The notes under the pieces: generated by a model | What the model was told of the DNA's origin: nothing | Databases searched by the model: none | Seen by the model: only the letters and a program-made list of their open reading frames with translations | Translations under genes and position numbers: made by a program | From: Rhizobium leguminosarum | GTDB taxonomy: Bacteria; Pseudomonadota; Alphaproteobacteria; Rhizobiales; Rhizobiaceae | Reading direction: 5' to 3' | Assembly (NCBI RefSeq): GCF_017876795.1 | Contig: NZ_JAGIOR010000001.1 | Span: forward strand, 2,010,501-2,074,500 | Length of the DNA stretch: 64,000 nucleotides | Part shown: positions 7,951 through 16,278 of the stretch, one piece after another | How the letters are laid out: every line of letters starts with the position of its first letter | Numbering within the stretch: the first letter of the stretch is position 1

Positions 7951-8949
7951 ATGGCAGTGACACTGGACCAGACGATTGCACAGAAGCAGCGTAGCCGGCT
8001 TGCGGAGTTCGTCGGCGGCCAGACATTCTGGGTGCTGATCGCCGTGCTTCTCGCCTGCCTCTTCCTGTCCTTCGCCACCGATTCCTTTGCGACGACGAAG
8101 AACCTCTACAACATCACCCGCAACGTCACCTTCGTCGCCATCATCGCGCTCGGCATGACGCTTGTCATCATCACCGGCGGCATCGATCTGTCGGTCGGCT
8201 CGGTGCTCTGCCTCTGCAGCATGGTGCTGGCGGTGACCATGAATGCCGGTTACTCCATCGAAGTCGGCATAACGGCCGCGATCGTCACGGCGCTTGTGAT
8301 CGGCGCCTTCAACGGCGTGCTGATCGCTTATCTCAATTTTCCGCCCTTCGTGGTGACGCTCGGCATGCTGTCGATTGCGCGAAGCTTGGCGATGGTAGCC
8401 TCGAACAACACCGTCGTCTTCCAGTTCGGCCCCGACCATGACAAGCTGCTGGCGCTCGGCGGCGGCGCCTGGTTTTTCGGGATCGCCAACCCGGTTCTCT
8501 ATATGGTCATCCTGGCGCTGCTCACCGGCTTCGTGCTGCGCTGGACGCGCTTCGGCCGCTATATTTTCGCGATCGGCGGCAACGAACATGCGGCCACGCT
8601 GACCGGCGTTCCGGTGCGCCGCATCAAGGTCGCCGTCTACATGATCTCGGCCTTATCGGCCGGCATTGCCGGCATCGTCCAGACCGGCTGGCTCGGCGCC
8701 GTTACCACCAATATCGGCGCCGGCATGGAACTGCAGGTCATTGCCGCCGCCGTCATCGGCGGCGCCAACCTCGCCGGCGGCATCGGCACGGCCTTCGGCG
8801 CCCTAGTCGGCGCGGCCTTGATCGAAGTGATCCGCAACAGTCTTGGCCTGCTCGGCATCAATGCGTTCTGGCAGGGGACGTTTATCGGTGGGGCGATCGT
8901 GCTGGCGGTCCTGTTCGACCGGATCCGGAATTTGCGGCAGAGCGAGTAG
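7951..8949 (+). CDS. sugar ABC transporter permease, RbsC family
   Basis: A 332-residue polytopic membrane protein with about eight to ten hydrophobic segments. It carries the RbsC-type signatures ALGMTLVIITGGIDLSVGS (near residues 70-89), FGRYIFAIGGNEHAATLTGV and [15 protein letters not shown]. It forms the inner-membrane channel of the importer encoded with the ATPase just upstream and the divergent binding protein. Normal length for the family. Confidence 0.88.
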   Translation: MAVTLDQTIAQKQRSRLAEFVGGQTFWVLIAVLLACLFLSFATDSFATTKNLYNITRNVTFVAIIALGMTLVIITGGIDLSVGSVLCLCSMVLAVTMNAGYSIEVGITAAIVTALVIGAFNGVLIAYLNFPPFVVTLGMLSIARSLAMVASNNTVVFQFGPDHDKLLALGGGAWFFGIANPVLYMVILALLTGFVLRWTRFGRYIFAIGGNEHAATLTGVPVRRIKVAVYMISALSAGIAGIVQTGWLGAVTTNIGAGMELQVIAAAVIGGANLAGGIGTAFGALVGAALIEVIRNSLGLLGINAFWQGTFIGGAIVLAVLFDRIRNLRQSE

Positions 8950-8996
8950 CGTTGGGAGGGCGACCGGCCGCCTTGGGGGAGGATCGGGCCGTCATC

Positions 8997-9206
8997 CTAT
9001 TCGAAGCGGATATCGCTCAGATCTACTGATACGATCAACGGCTCTGGCAGCGGCGTGTTGTCCGGCGGCCTCGGGAATATCCGCATTTTGGTCGGCACCA
9101 TGATGCCCTCGACCTGCACATATTCGCTGACATAGCGTGCGGCGGGGTTCCCGCCCTGATTATCGACCTCATAATCATGACGGACAAGAAGGCCTTGCGC
9201 GAGCAA
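8997..9206 (-). pseudogene. 3' fragment of a gene, truncated at its N-terminal side
   Basis: The minus strand encodes about 69 residues (RHDYEVDNQGGNPAARYVSE and VPTKMRIFPRPPDNTPLPEP) that look like the C-terminal part of a larger protein. There is a stop in frame immediately upstream, inside the 19-bp motif at 9207-9225, and no ATG; only a TTG lies at the edge. I therefore read it as a relic whose 5' end was removed when the DNA to its right arrived. Parent family not identified. Confidence 0.5.
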
Positions 9207-9225
9207 GGGAGTACGTAACTGTTAC
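9207..9225. promoter_or_regulatory. motif copy 1 (inverted relative to copies 2-4 and their genes)
   Basis: GGGAGTACGTAACTGTTAC, 18 of 19 bases identical to the reverse complement of copy 2 at 11373-11391. It contains the palindrome GTAAC-T-GTTAC. It lies 58-76 bases before the small gene at 9283 and directly against the truncated gene on its left. Confidence 0.6.
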
Positions 9226-9282
9226 AAGCAGGCGTATGGGCGTCTTCCGTTACAGTTTCAGGCTCGCAGCGATCGGAAAACC

Positions 9283-9582
9283 ATGCATGATGTCCCTTTC
9301 ACTCCTGTCGCGGTCGATAAAATGGGGACACGTGCTAGCGAACGAGGACTTCTGAGGCTCATGCTGAAACTGCCCGCCGTGCGCGGCCAGCTTCAGTTGC
9401 TGGCTACGCGCGACGACCCCGTACAGGGGCTATGCGAAGCCTACGAAGATGCGAGCGCCGCCTTAGACGGTTTTCGATCTCGCGAAAGACGCGACTTCGC
9501 GGTGATCAGCGAATATGAGACGATCTGCGCCGAGATCGAATCCGACGTCATCAGGCTCTGTCTCGAAGCGCGGCATTCCTGA
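9283..9582 (+). CDS. small conserved-looking hypothetical protein
   Basis: A 99-residue acidic, probably alpha-helical cytoplasmic protein (QGLCEAYEDASAALDGFR, YETICAEIESDVIRLCLEA). There is no signal peptide or membrane segment. It may start at the ATG at 9283 or at an internal ATG 12 codons later. It follows motif copy 1 and precedes the membrane/TPR gene. I do not recognise a family; codon use and helical periodicity make it look real. Confidence 0.55.
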   Translation: MHDVPFTPVAVDKMGTRASERGLLRLMLKLPAVRGQLQLLATRDDPVQGLCEAYEDASAALDGFRSRERRDFAVISEYETICAEIESDVIRLCLEARHS

Positions 9583-9685
9583 AAAATGGGACACACGCAT
9601 TTGTTACATTAGCATCCGCTCTTGTAATGTGGCGCAACCTGGTCGATAGTCCGCCCGCTTTCGTACAGTTGCGTGGGGGCATGCG

Positions 9686-10891
9686 ATGACTACCGATAGC
9701 AGACCAAGCGCCGACGAAGTTCCAGTTGAAGTGGCCAGGCAGGAGCTCGAGCGTCTGTTGCAGGACGGCAGGTTCCACGCCGCGAAACGCAACAGGGCGT
9801 TCCTGCGCTACATCTGCGAAGAGCAGTTCGCCGGCCGATCCAACCGGCTGAAGGCCTACTGTATCGCAGTCGACGTCTTTGGAAGACCCGCCGATTTCAA
9901 TTCGTCGGCCGATCCAATCGTTCGAATAGAGGCCAATCGGCTCAGAAGCGCCCTCGATAACTACTATCGCGCCTTCGGCAGCGTGGGGGACGTTCGTCTT
10001 CATATTCCGAAGGGGCGCTATGTGCCCGTATTCACCCGAACTTGCCACCTTCCCGAAGACGCCCACGACCCTTCGTATGCCGAAGGAGCCTTTGAGCAGC
10101 CGCATCAAGAGCGACAGGAACGCGGCACGCGGCAGTGGCGTCTCGCCACCCTCCTGACAGCGGCGGCCGGCTGCGTCATCTGCGCCGTTGGAGCGTGGAT
10201 GTACCAACGTCCGGTGTTCATCGAAAAGCCTATCGTCGCAGTCCGGATGATGACACTCACGGCAGATGGCTCTCCCCAGGCCCTTGCAGTCTATGACCAG
10301 TTCATGGCGGCCCTGGCGGGATACAGGTCTCTGCGCGTCGCTGCTTCCGCCGACGAGCACGACGAAGCCGCCAGATGGTCGCCGTGGAGGACGACCGCGG
10401 TTAATCGCTACGCCATCGATTTGAAGTTCTACAGCGCCTCATCCGGCCAGAACATCTGGTGGCAGGTAAGCCGACCCGGCTCGGGCGACATCATCGAAAC
10501 CGGAGTGCAGACCGCCAATCGGCTGCTCGACCCCGACCAGGTCCAGCAGATGCTGGTTCTCCCGCTCGTCCGCAAGCTCGCGTCACTCAGGGGCGTTATC
10601 AATGGCGCCGAAATGCGGGACGAGAGCAGTTCGCTTGGCAACGGCTGCCTGCTTCGAGCGGAATATGCCCTGGATTCGATGAGAACCGACCGCTTCGACG
10701 TCGCGAAAACCTGCCTGCGTTCGACCTTGACCTCCCGGCCCGATGATGCCGATTCCGAAGCGGCGCTGTCGAGGCTCATCGTCGCACAGCAGCTCGGTCG
10801 CCCGGAACCTGCTGGAATGGGCGAAGCGCTGTCTCTTGCCCGCTCGGCAGGTCGATTACACCGGATTCCGATCGTGCCTACATATCGCTGA
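9686..10891 (+). CDS. membrane signalling protein, N-terminal part of a split TPR protein
   Basis: 401 residues. Residues 10-115 form a domain also seen at the N terminus of rhizobial membrane/TPR signalling proteins (ELERLLQDGRFHAAKRNRAF, AYCIAVDVFGRPADFNSSAD, PIVRIEANRLRSALDNYY, HIPKGRYVPVF). It looks like a winged-helix-type module but I cannot prove DNA binding. One transmembrane segment lies near 153-172, then a periplasmic region like TolB/FlgO domains, then the start of helical repeats. The frame ends at TGA 10889-10891, overlapping the ATG of the next ORF (TGATG). The +2 frame before that ATG reads TPDSDRAYISLMFAHFFSG, which continues the same protein, so a frameshift near 10847-10885 has split one gene of about 550 codons. 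Confidence 0.65.
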   Translation: MTTDSRPSADEVPVEVARQELERLLQDGRFHAAKRNRAFLRYICEEQFAGRSNRLKAYCIAVDVFGRPADFNSSADPIVRIEANRLRSALDNYYRAFGSVGDVRLHIPKGRYVPVFTRTCHLPEDAHDPSYAEGAFEQPHQERQERGTRQWRLATLLTAAAGCVICAVGAWMYQRPVFIEKPIVAVRMMTLTADGSPQALAVYDQFMAALAGYRSLRVAASADEHDEAARWSPWRTTAVNRYAIDLKFYSASSGQNIWWQVSRPGSGDIIETGVQTANRLLDPDQVQQMLVLPLVRKLASLRGVINGAEMRDESSSLGNGCLLRAEYALDSMRTDRFDVAKTCLRSTLTSRPDDADSEAALSRLIVAQQLGRPEPAGMGEALSLARSAGRLHRIPIVPTYR

Positions 10892-11364
10892 TGTTTGCAC
10901 ATTTCTTCAGCGGGCATCTGCCGGCAGCTCTGGAGGCTGGCCGTCAGGCGCGGCAGTCGAACCCATACGATCCGGAAGTCTCCGCGAAGGTCGCAACCGT
11001 CCTCTACCTCTCGGGAAACTGGGACGAGGGCGCCGCCCTGGCGCGCGCTGCAGCGAGAACAGAGCCCGTCCCGCGTGACGCCAATCTCGTCTTGGCGCTA
11101 GACGCATATCGAAGAGGCGACTATGCGGAGGCATCGCTTCGCGCCGAACAAATGCCCGGCAAGGATTTCCTTCCATCGGTTCTGCGGGCGGCGGCGCTGG
11201 GGCAGATGAAGTCGCCGGAAGCCTACAACAGCCTGGCCGCGCTCCACCGCGACAATCCCGACAGCCTTGATGCATTCGACGAGCGTATGCGGCTAAGACG
11301 GGTGGATCCGTCGATCACCAGCTCCATCCAGACCGGTCTGGTCAAGGCTGGAATGGCTCGCTGA
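10891..11364 (+). pseudogene. TPR-containing C-terminal part of the split signalling protein
   Basis: 157 residues with TPR-like helical pairs (FSGHLPAALEAGRQARQSNP, LSGNWDEGAALARAAARTEP, AYRRGDYAEASLRAEQ). Its ATG at 10891 shares one base with the stop of the preceding ORF. The same frame reads sensibly for at least 13 codons upstream of the ATG, evidence that it was once continuous with the upstream ORF. It could still be made by termination-reinitiation, so it may function as a separate subunit. Either a single-base loss, a two-base gain or a sequencing error explains the split. Confidence 0.6.
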
Positions 11365-11372
11365 TGGCGCAT

Positions 11373-11391
11373 GTAACAGTTACGTACTTCC
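11373..11391 (+). promoter_or_regulatory. motif copy 2, upstream of the outer-membrane barrel gene
   Basis: GTAACAGTTACGTACTTCC, 48-66 bases before the barrel ATG at 11439. In the direction of its gene it has the same orientation as copies 3 and 4 have to theirs. Confidence 0.6.
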
Positions 11392-11438
11392 AAAACGCGT
11401 CGCAGCGGGCTGGAGTCTGGGCGTGACCGATCGGGGAA

Positions 11439-12224
11439 ATGGAAATGCATAAAATCTTCGTACTGGCGTTTGTTACGGCACTTTCAGCAGCGCCAGCCCT
11501 GTCAGCGGATATCTTGCCGGCCCTCGCTCCACAGCCCGTCGAACGGGATCCGGACAGATGGTCCTTCGCCTTCTCCCCCTACCTGTGGATATCCGGAATC
11601 ACCGGCGACACCGGCGTCTTCGGTCTTCCTGAGGTCCATATCGATGAGAGCTTCGGCGACGTCCTGAAAGATATCGACATCGGCTTCATGGGGGCGGGCG
11701 AAGCCCGTTATGGGGACTTCAGCATCATCACCGACATCTCCTACGCCCGCATTACGAGCGACTCCGCGACCCCGCGCGGCGTCTTCGCAGACTCCGTTTC
11801 GCTGAAGCAGGAGACGTTTACGGCGATGCTGGGGGTCGGATACACGATTGTCGAGGACCAGAACGCCCGGTTGGACGCCGTCGTCGCCGCAAAGCTCTGG
11901 TGGACCGAGACGACGCTTTCGTTCGGAGGAGGCCCTCTGGGTGGCGTGTCGCATCGTGACGACGCGACATGGGTCGACGGGCTTGTGGGCTTCCGTGGCA
12001 TGTATTCGATCACGCCGGAAGTCTATCTGACGGGCTCGGCGTTGATCGGCGCGGGCGGCGCCGATCTCGACTGGGACGTCATGGCCGGGATCGGCTACAG
12101 GTGGAAGGAATCCATGTCGGCGGTCGCCGGCTATCGCGCGCTCGGCGTCGACTATTCGAACGGAAGCCTCACCAATGACACGGTCCAGCACGGCCCGATC
12201 ATCGGGGTCGTGTTTCATTTCTAG
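11439..12224 (+). CDS. outer-membrane beta-barrel protein
   Basis: 261 residues with a signal peptide (about residues 1-22, ALSAAPALSA). Alternating hydrophobic/polar strands follow (WSFAFSPYLWISGITGD, GDFSIITDISYARI, SMSAVAGYRALGVDYS), and the chain ends in a terminal aromatic, VVFHF, the usual barrel-assembly signal. It is probably a small outer-membrane barrel of the OmpW/Omp25-like group. It lies between the split signalling gene and the HAD/sulfatase genes and has its own motif copy upstream, so it may admit or sense the sulfated substrate. The second ATG two codons on is an equally good start. Confidence 0.75.
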   Translation: MEMHKIFVLAFVTALSAAPALSADILPALAPQPVERDPDRWSFAFSPYLWISGITGDTGVFGLPEVHIDESFGDVLKDIDIGFMGAGEARYGDFSIITDISYARITSDSATPRGVFADSVSLKQETFTAMLGVGYTIVEDQNARLDAVVAAKLWWTETTLSFGGGPLGGVSHRDDATWVDGLVGFRGMYSITPEVYLTGSALIGAGGADLDWDVMAGIGYRWKESMSAVAGYRALGVDYSNGSLTNDTVQHGPIIGVVFHF

Positions 12225-12338
12225 AGCATGATGCCGAAAAGTGTGAGCGGTTTTCTTATGACATCATGCTCTAACTATCTAATTTAGAACAGGATTCAGA
12301 TTTTAGGCCAAGCGGGCTTAAAATCATCCTGTTCTAAA
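12223..12338. repeat. two rhizobial palindromic repeats
   Basis: AGAGCATGATG (12223-12233) pairs with CATCATGCTCT (12262-12272), and TTTAGAACAGGAT (12283-12295) with ATCCTGTTCTAAA (12326-12338). Such intergenic palindromes are common in rhizobia. The first begins on the stop codon of the barrel gene and may act as its transcription terminator. Confidence 0.7.
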
Positions 12339-12394
12339 GCCGGGCGGGCAGAGGCTGAAGCTGCTGGATCCGCAGAACAACTCCGGCCTCCAAC

Positions 12395-13384
12395 TTATTG
12401 CTCGAAAGCGAAGATCCTCTTCCAGTCCGATTTCATGTCCACCACCAGCCAGTTCCGGCGCTCCGCCTCGTCGAGCGCCTTGTCCAGCTTCCCGATAGAA
12501 GACTGCCGATCGTAGGCGTATTCTCGCTCGCCGTCGGTATGGTGGACGATGATCGCCAAGCTTGGCCCCTTTGCCGCCGTTCCCCAACGGAGCATCTCAT
12601 AGTCACCGTCGGAGTTGCCGGCGACGAAGATGGGCTTCCTGCCGATGAACTTGTTGATGCCGGCCGGTTTGCCCGGACCGTCGTCGATGAAATCGATCTT
12701 CGGCAGCCGCTTCAGGACCGGAACGTCGCCGATGATCGCGTATTCGGTGGCGATCGTGCTGCCGACGACCTGCTGGGGCGGGATGCCATAGAGCTTTTCG
12801 GTCACCGGACGCATGAACTCGACACCGCCGCCCGACACGATGTAGGTCGCGAAGCCATTGGACCTGAGGTAGTCCAGCAGCTCGCGCATCGGGAGGTAGC
12901 CCATCTCCGTGTAGGGCCTGCCCGTTTTCGGATGCTTGGCGGTCGCAAACCATTCGGAGACGATCGTGCTGAACTGGTCTGTCGTCTGCCCGGCATGCGT
13001 CGCCATTACAAGCTCGACGATGCCTTTCTCGCCGCTCCTGGCGATCCCCTTCGGCTCGCCGTCGAGAATGCTCTTGAACGGCTCCTTCGTTTTCCACTCC
13101 GGATACTGCGGGGCAAGCGCTTTCACCCGGTCGAGGATAAAGCCCAACTGGACGTAAAACGGCTGCTCCGACCAGAGGGTGCCGTCATTGTCGAACACCG
13201 CGATCCTGTCATCCGGCGCGACGTATCCTTGCCCGCCCGTAGTCGTCGTCGCCTTGACGAACGCAACGATCCTGTTCTTCGCCGCAGTGTCGTTCCATGA
13301 CGGAAGAACCTCCTGCGCGAAGGCGGGCAGGGCCATCATCAGGATGGCGCCGGCCACTGACGAAGCGTTGAAGGCTCTGCTCAT
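12395..13384 (-). CDS. secreted HAD-superfamily phosphatase
   Basis: 329 residues with a signal peptide (LMMALPAFA-QE, about residue 24). HAD motif I is VFDNDGTL with nucleophile D65 and D67; the later GNSDGD supplies the motif IV acidic residues. The pattern is that of phosphoserine-phosphatase-like HADs sent to the periplasm. The ATG at 13384 (alternative 13387) lies seven bases after AGGAG and overlaps the stop of the FGE gene, so the two are translationally coupled. It is likely a phosphatase acting beside the sulfatase on an anionic substrate. Substrate unknown. Confidence 0.85.
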   Translation of the reverse strand: MSRAFNASSVAGAILMMALPAFAQEVLPSWNDTAAKNRIVAFVKATTTTGGQGYVAPDDRIAVFDNDGTLWSEQPFYVQLGFILDRVKALAPQYPEWKTKEPFKSILDGEPKGIARSGEKGIVELVMATHAGQTTDQFSTIVSEWFATAKHPKTGRPYTEMGYLPMRELLDYLRSNGFATYIVSGGGVEFMRPVTEKLYGIPPQQVVGSTIATEYAIIGDVPVLKRLPKIDFIDDGPGKPAGINKFIGRKPIFVAGNSDGDYEMLRWGTAAKGPSLAIIVHHTDGEREYAYDRQSSIGKLDKALDEAERRNWLVVDMKSDWKRIFAFEQ

Positions 13385-14358
13385 CATGCTTCTCCTGATG
13401 TTACGGCCCGCTTGACGCAGCGGAAGCCGACATGGCTGGTCGATGTGTCTTCCGGCTCCGCATGTCTCCCGGCCGGGCGATAGCGGCGGCAGTAGTTCGG
13501 CGCGCAGAGATGCGAGCCGCCTTTCAGGACACGGCGCGGGATCCTGATCTCCGGCTGGCGTGGGTCGTAGCTGGTCTCGACGCCGAGGCCGCGCGGGTTC
13601 TGCGGAATGCAACATGAATGCTTGGCGGGTTCTGGATGCCGCGCCGACCAGTAGTCTGCCGTCCATTCCCAGACGTTGCCGATCATGTCGTAGAGGCCAT
13701 AACCGTTCGCCGGGAAGGATCTGACTATGCTCGTTCGTTCACCGCCTCTCGGCTTGTTGGAGTGTGTCGGGAATGTCCCTGCCCAGGTATTCGCCATCGC
13801 CTTGCCTTCAGGCATCAGCTCGTCGCCCCAGGCATATTCGCCATCAAGGCCGCCACGGGCCGCGAACTCCCATTGCGCTTCTGTCGGCAACTCAAGCCCG
13901 GCCCAGTCGGCGTAAGCCCTGGCGTCGCGGAAGGAGACGTGGACGACGGGGTGGTCCAGCCTGCCACGCAGATCGCTGATGCCGCCGAGCGGCCGCCGCC
14001 AATTCGCGCCGAACTTGAAGGTCCACCATTGCGAAATGTCGGGGCCGTTCACCGTTTTCGGTTGGACGAAGAGCAGTGATCCGGCGCGCAGCATTTCCGG
14101 CAGCGCCCCCGGATAGTCCTGCGGATCCGGCGCTTTCTCGGCAGTGGTGACGTAGCCGGTCGCCTTGACGAATTCCATGAACCTGCGGTTCGTGACGGGC
14201 GTCTCATCGATCCAGAAGCCATCGACCTTCACTGGATGGGCCGGCGCCTCTTCCGGATAGTGCCGGTCGGAGCCCATGACGAACGTCCCGCCGGGAATCC
14301 AGATCATTCCTTCCGAAGGTTCCCGCGCTGCGGGCTCATCCTCGAACGCCAGGGCCAT
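13384..14358 (-). CDS. formylglycine-generating enzyme (SUMF1 family)
   Basis: 324 residues covering a single FGE-sulfatase domain: GMIWIPGGTFVMGSD at the start, WIDETPVTNRRFMEFV, LPTEAQWEFAARGG, GNVWEWTADYW and a closing VGFRC. The catalytic cysteine pair of aerobic FGE is present in HLCAPNYCRRYR (C285 and C290). It oxidises the sulfatase active-site cysteine to formylglycine. The sulfatase gene directly upstream on the same strand encodes a CTAGR motif, its expected substrate. The ATG at 14358 follows AAGGAGG. A copy of the 19-bp motif lies 51-69 bases upstream, so it probably has its own promoter besides any read-through. Confidence 0.92.
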   Translation of the reverse strand: MALAFEDEPAAREPSEGMIWIPGGTFVMGSDRHYPEEAPAHPVKVDGFWIDETPVTNRRFMEFVKATGYVTTAEKAPDPQDYPGALPEMLRAGSLLFVQPKTVNGPDISQWWTFKFGANWRRPLGGISDLRGRLDHPVVHVSFRDARAYADWAGLELPTEAQWEFAARGGLDGEYAWGDELMPEGKAMANTWAGTFPTHSNKPRGGERTSIVRSFPANGYGLYDMIGNVWEWTADYWSARHPEPAKHSCCIPQNPRGLGVETSYDPRQPEIRIPRRVLKGGSHLCAPNYCRRYRPAGRHAEPEDTSTSHVGFRCVKRAVTSGEA

Positions 14359-14408
14359 CGCCGCCTCCTTGAGATACCGGGTGATCTTCGCGTGTTGAAC
14401 GACGAGGC

Positions 14409-14427
14409 GGAAGTACGTTACTGTAAA
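14409..14427 (-). promoter_or_regulatory. motif copy 3, upstream of the FGE gene
   Basis: On the plus strand GGAAGTACGTTACTGTAAA; in the direction of the gene TTTACAGTAACGTACTTCC. It lies 51-69 bases before the FGE ATG, nearly the same spacing as copy 2 to the barrel gene. Confidence 0.6.
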
Positions 14428-14501
14428 CGACGCCGGCATTTACGCGAATGCGGCGTAAATTTACGGCGCGGCACATGCCGCGCCTGAAAGGTTCGACAGA
14501 A

Positions 14502-16136
14502 CTATTGTGCGCCGTTGGGACTTTGCTCCAGCGAGCGCATCAACGCATCGACCATCTGATCGATGCTGAAGCTCGCCCCACGCTGGCTTGGCGGATACTC
14601 GCGGAAGGTCTGCAGGAACGGGGCGACACGCCACACCCCGTATTGGATGAGATAGGCGTTCTTGGTATACCAGTCGTAATATTGATCGGAGACGACGTCG
14701 GCCCGCTCGAAGGGGTCCATGCGGAGATTGAAGACTTTAGGCGCCCTGAGGCAGGTGAACGGATTCATCCAAACTTGAAATCCGCCCGGTTCGCGTTGTT
14801 CGCAGAATACCAGCTTCCAGTCGTTATACCGGTAAGACACCAGATTTCCATCGTCGTCGAAATAGAAGAATTCCTGCCTGGCCGATTTCGTGTCCTCCCC
14901 TGTCAGGTAGGAAAGCTGGTTGTAGCCGTCCAGGTGCACCTTGTACTGGTTGCCGACGATCGTCGTTCCTTTCAGGAGCTTGTCCTTGATGTCGGGATCG
15001 CCCGCCGCCGCCACCAAGGTGGGAAACCAGTCGAGACCGGCCATCATCTGGTTTGAGACTTCGCCGGCCTTGATATGGCCCGGCCATCTGACCATCGCGG
15101 GAACGCGGAACGCTCCTTCCCAGTTGGTGTCTTTTTCGCTGCGGAATGGGGTCGTGGCGGCATCCGGCCAGGACCACTGGTTCGGACCGTTGTCGGTCGT
15201 GTAGACGACTATGGTGTTGTCGGCGATTTTCAGATCGTCGAGAACCTTGAGCAGCTTGCCGACATCGCCGTCATGTTCCAGCATGCCATCGGCGTAATCA
15301 TTGCCCGGCATGCCGCTCTGGCCCTGCATCGACTCGCGAACATGGGTGAAGGCGTGCATGCGGGTGGTATTCATCCACGTAAAGAACGGCTTTCCCTCGT
15401 TCGTCTTCCTCGTGATGAAGTCGACAGCGGCTGCCGTGGTTTCGTCGTCGATCGTCTCCATCCGCTTCCGGTTCAGGGCGCCGGTGTCTTCGATCTTGCC
15501 GCCGGCCGACGCCTTCAAGACGCCGCGAGGCGAATTCGTTCGTACAAACTCCTGGTCGTCTTTCGGATAGTAGGGGCGTTCAGGCTCTTCCTCGGCATTA
15601 AGGTGGTAGAGATTGCCGAAGAATTCATCGAAGCCGTGGTTTGTCGGCAGGAACTCATCACGGTCCCCGAGGTGGTTCTTGCCGAACTGCCCAGTTGCAT
15701 AACCCAACGGCTTCAGGGCTTGCGCGATGGTAATGTCGCGGGCCTGCAGACCGACGGACGCACCGGGGATGCCGACCTTGCATAAGCCCGTGCGAAGGCA
15801 AACCTGGCCGGTGATGAAGGTCGAGCGGCCCGCCGTACAACTGTTCTCTGCGTAATAGTCGGTGAACCGCATGCCTTCCTTAGCGATCCGGTCGATGTTT
15901 GGGGTGCGGTAGCCGACGATGCCATCAGCGTAGGCGCTGATGTTCGTCTGGCCGATATCGTCGCCGAAAATGACGAGGATGTTCGGCTTGGCTGTCTGCG
16001 GTGCAGGTGCGTCCGCCTGCGGAGCGGGCGTCGCCGCCTGCTGGGCGGAGGCTGGCCCGCTGAACACTGAGCCGCTCAGTGCCACCGCAAGTGCTGCCGT
16101 CACGCGCAGGAGCTTTCCGTGGAGCGTCTTCGTCAT
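14502..16136 (-). CDS. secreted arylsulfatase (formylglycine-dependent)
   Basis: 544 residues with a signal peptide ending near GPASAQQ (about residue 32) and a Pro/Ala/Gln linker to residue 50. The mature chain opens with NILVIFGDDIG (metal ligands D59, D60). The sulfatase signature CTAGRSTFITGQ has C100 as the cysteine converted to formylglycine. YTTDNGPN supplies later metal ligands. It hydrolyses sulfate esters in the periplasm or outside the cell, releasing sulfate. The activating FGE is encoded next. The ATG at 16136 lies eight bases after GAGG; a GTG at 16145 overlaps that ribosome site. Substrate class unknown. Confidence 0.92.
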   Translation of the reverse strand: MTKTLHGKLLRVTAALAVALSGSVFSGPASAQQAATPAPQADAPAPQTAKPNILVIFGDDIGQTNISAYADGIVGYRTPNIDRIAKEGMRFTDYYAENSCTAGRSTFITGQVCLRTGLCKVGIPGASVGLQARDITIAQALKPLGYATGQFGKNHLGDRDEFLPTNHGFDEFFGNLYHLNAEEEPERPYYPKDDQEFVRTNSPRGVLKASAGGKIEDTGALNRKRMETIDDETTAAAVDFITRKTNEGKPFFTWMNTTRMHAFTHVRESMQGQSGMPGNDYADGMLEHDGDVGKLLKVLDDLKIADNTIVVYTTDNGPNQWSWPDAATTPFRSEKDTNWEGAFRVPAMVRWPGHIKAGEVSNQMMAGLDWFPTLVAAAGDPDIKDKLLKGTTIVGNQYKVHLDGYNQLSYLTGEDTKSARQEFFYFDDDGNLVSYRYNDWKLVFCEQREPGGFQVWMNPFTCLRAPKVFNLRMDPFERADVVSDQYYDWYTKNAYLIQYGVWRVAPFLQTFREYPPSQRGASFSIDQMVDALMRSLEQSPNGAQ

Positions 16137-16259
16137 GACTGGCACCTCGGGTTCTGGTCGTTCATCATCACGCTCTCCATTGTTGCAGCCGCGTCCCTGC
16201 GGCCTTCATTGGATCGTCGTCGTTTGACCAGACGAGGCTTCTATATTCCGCGGGTGAGT

Positions 16260-16278
16260 GGAAGTACGTTACTGTAAC
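16260..16278 (-). promoter_or_regulatory. motif copy 4, between the sulfatase and cyclase genes
   Basis: On the plus strand GGAAGTACGTTACTGTAAC; towards the sulfatase gene GTTACAGTAACGTACTTCC. It lies 124-142 bases before the sulfatase ATG and 257 bases before the divergent cyclase gene, so it could serve either. It contains the perfect dyad GTTAC-T-GTAAC. Confidence 0.6.

Follow-up and report, generated by a model that had tools for sequence, protein, structure and literature searches.

A conserved, probable operator-promoter element before sulfatase and envelope-type genes of Rhizobium, and a candidate membrane-bound regulator family

The 64,000-nucleotide stretch of Rhizobium leguminosarum DNA analyzed here (the window) carries four copies of a 19-bp motif, GGRAGTACGTWACTGTWAM, among genes for a sulfatase, its neighbors, and a candidate regulator that we refer to as the 9686 protein. 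A small conserved protein of 99 residues, with neither a Pfam match nor a hydrophobic segment, is encoded at 9283..9582 (plus strand) and is followed by the 9686 gene (9686..10891, plus strand), whose product has a predicted N-terminal DNA-binding domain, a transmembrane (TM) helix, and the start of a C-terminal domain. The remainder of its tetratricopeptide repeat (TPR) domain lies in another frame (10891..11364, plus strand), with homologues aligning from about 10852. The regulator gene of the window is split over two frames (9686 to 11364), with the break in its C-terminal part, and its homologues are uninterrupted; the break could be either a mutation or an assembly error, the two being indistinguishable here. 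Next come a predicted outer-membrane-barrel-type protein (11439..12224, plus strand; conserved cluster 14), which lacks a Pfam match and was judged a barrel by eye; a HAD-superfamily hydrolase (12395..13384, minus strand; PF12710) with a signal-like N terminus, again by eye; an FGE, or sulfatase-modifying factor (13384..14358, minus strand; PF03781); and a sulfatase (14502..16145, minus strand; PF00884) with a visible SCTAGR, which we take to be a Cys-type motif. The HAD hydrolase is probably the second gene of the FGE transcription unit. At the other end, a C-terminal gene remnant of about 62 residues (8997..9185, minus strand) lies directly downstream of the first motif copy, and when compared with the loci fetched for this study it matched only copies of the window itself.

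The four motif copies are at the places given by an earlier reading of the sequence alone (the sequence-only reading): a search allowing up to three mismatches returned exactly four matches in the window, each without mismatch, and no matches in any of 100 dinucleotide-preserving shuffles (expectation 0). The absence of a fifth copy from the window was also noted in that reading and holds even with three mismatches. Copy 1 (9207..9225, plus strand) faces the minus-strand remnant and points away from the open reading frame (ORF) at 9283. Copy 2 (11373..11391, minus strand) reads GTAACAGTTACGTACTTCC in the gene direction and ends 47 bases from the barrel ATG at 11439. Copy 3 (14409..14427, plus strand) precedes the FGE gene in the gene direction, 50 bases from the ATG at 14358, with more GTAAA/TTTAC boxes upstream of it, and copy 4 (16260..16278, plus strand) precedes the sulfatase by 114 bases to a GTG at 16145 or 123 bases to an ATG at 16136. 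The common orientation proposed before the barrel, FGE, and sulfatase genes is thus present (TTTACnGTAACGTACTTCC-like in the gene direction, with GTAACAGTTACGTACTTCC for the barrel), and the proposed spacing of 48 to 142 bases was about right.

The motif is rare in the genome. Its core, GTACGTWACNGTWA, occurs five times in 7.58 Mb, comprising the four window copies and one at C1:3418325, with no hits for the reversed control, and a dispersed repeat of the repetitive extragenic palindrome (REP) type is ruled out by these counts. Degenerate copies are inseparable from chance, as a genome scan at two mismatches gave fewer sites (13) than the reversed control (130). The fifth copy lies at the start of a DUF1254/DUF1214 gene. 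A transposase gene (PF07592; L019:9588-10835) is located beside this site.

The core recurs in relatives, being carried by 44 of 150 genomes, the R. leguminosarum genome included. Within the genus Rhizobium, 41 of 90 genomes have it. Their sites number 264, compared with 23 for the reversed control, and the control attains two or more in just three genomes. The number per genome ranges up to 15 in relatives, compared with five in the window genome. We surveyed target genes in the window and in twenty site-containing regions, selected through the motif, using gene calls from a simple ORF caller that missed or merged some genes (for example, the FGE gene in the window). Families recurring directly behind a site or in the same-strand run include the sulfatase, FGE, HAD hydrolase, the 9283 small ORF, and the 9686 protein, as well as an MscS channel, an SLT/solute-binding protein, MoxR, DUF58, DUF4381, two vWA proteins, and BatD. 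A DUF900 hydrolase, DUF1254/DUF1214, bestrophin-like, DUF1269, DUF3300, and DUF2950 proteins are also recurrent, and an alkyl sulfatase and a Phenol_MetA_deg protein (the latter in L195) were found behind sites too. Among 63 sites, 51 closely precede a gene start in the direction in which they read, four precede an opposite start only, and eight precede neither; 146 of 1,260 random positions have such a gene start. The sequence-only reading had suggested one regulator for the barrel, sulfatase, and FGE/HAD genes, which these comparative data favor, and the predicted regulon is wider than it proposed, extending to MscS, MoxR/DUF58/vWA, DUF1254, bestrophin-like, and SLT genes. Orthologous sulfatase and FGE genes of relatives are indeed preceded by sites, although some of these genes lack one, and we saw no support for control of the cyclase gene at 16.5 kb of the window, which had also been put forward.

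Alignment of 89 distinct sites in the gene direction, including three from other families in the order, gives the consensus TTTACnGTAACGTACTT(C/A)C. The search pattern fixed the consensus up to GTAC, and the later positions emerged from the alignment: T at 14 (88 sites), T at 15 (82), and C at 17 (70). In a non-redundant set of 72 sites, a weak -10-like element lies at a constant distance (A at 37 in 47%, A/T at 38, and T at 42 in 60%), and an extra upstream TTAC is found at -12 in 13 and at -11 in six, compared with a mean of 0.66 per position. The best reading of this arrangement is an operator abutting a -35 region, TTTACnGTAAC-GTA-CTTCC, in which CTTCC is taken to be the -35 region, separated from the weak -10 by a spacer of 18 bases; rhizobial -35 sequences are of the type CTTGAC. 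The palindrome described in the sequence-only reading stands, with its conserved core amended to TTTACnGTAAC, an imperfect inverted repeat, and the one-sided arm, GTACTTCC, appears one-sided because it overlaps the apparent -35 region. The inverted repeat would lie about 45 bases before the expected transcription start, a class II activator position.

The 9686 protein is the candidate for binding this site. Its N terminus (about residues 14 to 118 in the model) is predicted to be a DNA-binding domain of OmpR/CadC-like fold, and comparative data favor this domain as the candidate regulator, as had been suggested, with DNA binding itself a prediction. The domain of this family has no match to Pfam Trans_reg_C or to NCBIfam or PDB sequence profiles, and HHalign comparison with 19 OmpR-type domains of the same genome gave a weak result. 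The TM helix (residues 153 to 171 of the window protein) shows up as a hydropathy segment where expected in 13 of the 14 members of alignment A1 (missed in L063) and in the third-lineage member L144, and it was missed in the sole A-flank member tried (L158). The TPR family PF14559 scores above the cut-off in an intact homologue, with a weak TPR match below the cut-off in the out-of-frame portion of the window copy, and the PDB matches of the full-length regulator profile are TPR proteins. Pfam scans of the window protein and one intact homologue found neither a receiver domain nor a cyclase domain. Current database names, available to us for about a quarter of the proteins, are 'tetratricopeptide repeat protein,' 'hypothetical protein,' and 'adenylate cyclase,' with no regulator function among them.

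In relatives, the small-ORF gene is usually just upstream of the regulator gene, often with an operator, and none of 14 small-partner sequences has a hydrophobic segment by a simple hydropathy test (19-residue mean above 1.6). The small ORF was considered as the regulator itself and rejected, as its relatives are found in 69 of 90 genomes compared with 41 for the motif, and it lacks a match to a DNA-binding family. We note that a copy of the small ORF with its adjoining operator may sit apart from the regulator gene, on another contig (L053 and L054 in G008; L062 in G076).

Presence of the regulator and of multiple sites largely coincide among the 90 Rhizobium genomes. With a match of at least 440 bits as the criterion, 35 genomes have the regulator and 32 of these have at least two sites, the exceptions being G021 with one and G039 and G083 with none; at least two sites are present in five of the 55 genomes without it (G028, G030, G033, G038, and G059). 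For lineage A of the regulator alone, in a tally whose motif counts and lineage sets were compiled by hand from the searches, at least two sites occur in 31 of 32 genomes with the regulator and in six of 58 without. One of the five discordant genomes, G030, has a regulator-gene remnant beside a site, together with an 84%-identical sulfatase. Another, G033, has seven A-type sites before regulon-type genes, with the lineage-A regulator not found in its two mapped regions (L064 and L065), and holds four paralogues of the DNA-binding domain. Co-occurrence is weak evidence by itself, because the regulator shares clusters with its targets.

The bases that follow the core are more informative, as they vary with the regulator lineage. 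Four loci (in G039, G083, G085, and G032) have orthologous target clusters but a regulator of only 34 to 37% identity; the MoxR proteins are 91 to 92% identical, FGE 81 to 83% (seen in three), and sulfatases 79 to 80% (three of four genes; the other is 55%). The same core precedes sulfatase, FGE, small-ORF, and barrel genes in these loci with another flank, which is A-type (AATC, ATTC, AAGC, and two singles) at 12 of 13 sites and GTGC at one. In a third lineage, with a regulator of 27 to 29% identity and FGE of 79 to 81%, TTACnGTAAC is followed by CTAC before all six FGE genes and by ATAC before three other genes, and never by G; lineage C includes one locus (L153) assigned via its FGE, its regulator lying outside the fetched stretch. 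Genome-wide, TTACNGTAACAWTC has at least two sites only in G032, G083, and G085, with one in G039 and singles in four others (reversed control, five), and TTACTGTAACCTACTT occurs in five of 90 genomes, every one with a third-lineage FGE (reversed control, 0).

Because loci L050 to L069 were selected through the motif, the GTAC counts from them (45 of 47) are circular, and we turn to two motif-independent tests. For the first, 20 further lineage-A loci were fetched by regulator position alone. Their cores are followed by GTAC in 37 cases and by ATAC and TTAC in one each (reversed control, 0), and a G site is found somewhere in 16 of the 20 loci. A proximal site, defined as lying 200 to 1,100 bases upstream of the helix codons and reading toward the regulator, is present in 12 of 20 and always has G. 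Control of the small ORF, another suggestion of the sequence-only reading, and of the regulator itself is thus supported in part of the relatives and is uncertain in the window, where the 9207 copy is reversed.

The second test used 80 loci found by protein in GTDB genomes, with species partly as in the other set; sources include Rhizobium, Neorhizobium, Ochrobactrum/Brucella, Agrobacterium, Sinorhizobium, and R. johnstonii 3841. The helix could be read in 78 and is S/N-RLR in 67, T-RLR in eight, and of other types in three; it was taken from the first match, and for L231 and L237 that match is a neighboring paralogue. At the proximal site, the base after GTAAC in the S/N-RLR loci is G in 42 and A in four, with the site absent in 21, whereas in the T-RLR loci it is A in seven and the site is absent in one; the three other-helix loci all lack a proximal site, and the reversed control has none. 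Over whole loci, and among the flank types counted, S/N-RLR loci have 150 GTAC flanks and at least eight others, and T-RLR loci have no GTAC and 23 A-type flanks. The ten-base core alone has a background in these 80 loci, with 286 cores compared with 57 for the reversed control. As the loci overlap in ancestry, their independence is overstated by the Fisher value of 2e-6. The window protein is of the N type (EANRLRS), which it shares with an A. pusense locus with a likewise irregular proximal site. This co-variation of flank with regulator lineage and helix is the main support for the 9686 family as the probable binder.

Several observations weigh against this assignment. The flank base is not strict, as there are 13 ATACTT and seven TTACTT sites, mostly in lineage-A genomes (reversed control, 0). 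Eight of the 20 lineage-A loci lack a proximal site (L189, L193, and L196 to L201), and in these 20 loci the core lies within 300 bases of only seven of 16 small ORFs, three of 12 FGE genes, and two of four sulfatase genes, as counted from simple ORF starts. Using the same distance, the A-flank loci have no core before DUF1254 (3/3), DUF900 (3/3), MoxR (4/4), and MscS (2/2) genes, and the third-lineage loci have none before sulfatase (3/3), DUF900 (6/6), barrel (4/6), second-barrel (3/3), and MscS (2/2) genes. In loci without a lineage call, all ten genes (four FGE, two sulfatase, and four barrel) lack the core. Some of the core-less genes are inner genes of runs. The L196 to L201 sub-lineage, with the helix ISRLRAAL, lacks the usual proximal operator, although a GTAC site near the sulfatase is retained in three of its loci; the operator of this sub-lineage may have changed.

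On balance, we consider it probable that the motif combines a regulator-binding site with a promoter and that it is bound by the 9686 family as a CadC-like, membrane-bound, one-component regulator. The N-terminal winged-helix domain, in the cytoplasm, would bind TTTACnGTAAC beside the -35 region, with a single TM helix tethering the protein and the C-terminal TPR domain probably sensing something in the periplasm. Bound regulator would most likely activate transcription, because the site is directly upstream of the -35 region, and in many relatives the regulator would also control its own two-gene unit of small ORF and regulator. The flank bases may be read by lineage-specific residues (S..S, T..E, and G..R) of the long helix before the hairpin. 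A more extended reading, which we hold tentatively and at somewhat short of even chances, is of an undescribed family of membrane-tethered regulators in the Rhizobiaceae and neighboring families, with a DNA-binding domain unrecognized by the sequence libraries tried and usually a small partner gene, controlling a traveling sulfatase/FGE/MoxR/vWA/envelope set via TTACnGTAAC. The post-core bases would then be a specificity code set by two recognition-helix positions (S/N..S for G, T..E for A, and G..R for C or A), letting at least two copies coexist without cross-talk.

The window copies could be relics of a regulon that is decaying in this strain, with inactive sites, which is compatible with binding by the 9686 family; we think this doubtful, at perhaps one chance in a few. 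The broken frame of the regulator, the truncated gene beside copy 1, and the low number of sites relative to other genomes are in its favor, but three of the four copies are exact 19-mer matches before open genes, the DNA-binding domain and membrane helix of the window regulator are intact, and misassembly could account for the frame break. If the regulator of the window strain is damaged, the sites could be silent there, a question of the strain and separate from that of the family.

It is plausible, but unlikely, that another, unlinked regulator binds the sites, for example of the TetR type, whose operators are often imperfect palindromes, and that the 9686 family is a frequent fellow traveler and a target. 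This would accommodate the five genomes that keep multiple sites without a full-length 9686-family protein, including G033 with no 9686-type gene found in its two mapped regions, and the eight lineage-A regulators without a proximal site. Moreover, the binding sites of OmpR-type proteins are mostly direct repeats, and the core is an inverted one. A fellow traveler would not, however, explain why the base after GTAAC tracks regulator lineage and helix residues in loci selected by protein, and no other regulator was seen among the recurring clusters scanned (clusters 13, 19, 20, and 22, for example, were outside the scan). Least credible, and very improbable in our view, is that the conserved block is the -35 part of an extracytoplasmic function (ECF) sigma factor promoter with no operator, as suggested by its fixed orientation, the constant distance to the -10-like element, and the short, well-conserved nature of ECF -35 elements, since the element is an 11-base inverted repeat, part of the sites have the extra upstream TTAC box, the A-flank lineage sites are nearly symmetric with several promoters carrying two, and no sigma-factor gene is named among the clusters scanned, a subset of the recurring ones.

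If the 9686 family acts as proposed, its architecture and mode of action would be like those of CadC of Escherichia coli, with an N-terminal DNA-binding domain, a TM helix, and a C-terminal sensor. The CadC operator differs from the TTTACnGTAAC site, and the 9686 family differs from CadC in its predicted targets, in its small partner without a hydrophobic segment, and in a DNA-binding domain unrecognized by the Trans_reg_C, NCBIfam, and PDB sequence profiles. In contrast to OmpR/PhoB-type response regulators (PhoB, PrrA, PhoP, and GlnR), there is no receiver domain in the two proteins scanned, the predicted DNA-binding domain is N-terminal and probably membrane tethered, and the core is an inverted repeat. 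The ToxR/ToxS and VtrA/VtrC systems are described as pairing a membrane-bound regulator with a small partner in a two-gene unit (PMC9214523). The 9686 family is likewise paired with a small partner, but here the partner gene precedes the regulator gene, and a periplasmic co-sensor role for the partner is unlikely because all 14 sequences lack a hydrophobic segment. In the parts of the open-access literature that we covered, with subscription papers outside the search, we found no description of either the regulator family or the motif.

Should these predictions hold, a large group of entries now named TPR, hypothetical, or 'adenylate cyclase' proteins would become transcription factors whose operator is known and whose regulon is predicted. 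Model strains are included, as R. johnstonii 3841 has the A-flank lineage on its chromosome (locus L273). There would be a starting point for learning when the sulfatase/FGE and MoxR/vWA clusters of rhizobia come into use, and the lineages would supply naturally matched regulators and operators with which to study changes in winged-helix specificity.

The alkyl sulfatase at L069:6322-8466, of the metallo-beta-lactamase type (PF14863/PF14864), has an operator at its start and adds to the predicted regulon another sulfatase class, unrelated to the first. The window genome also encodes a separate paralogue group, B, one gene of which is preceded by a different conserved element, TTACGTATTGCTACGGAA; at two mismatches this element is found once per genome in 12 of 41 genomes, with five hits for the reversed control, and we do not count it as evidence. 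The group consists of two convergent regulator paralogues (8029-8994 and 9062-10852 in L120, G000:C4:19000-37000) and is kept in many Rhizobium genomes.

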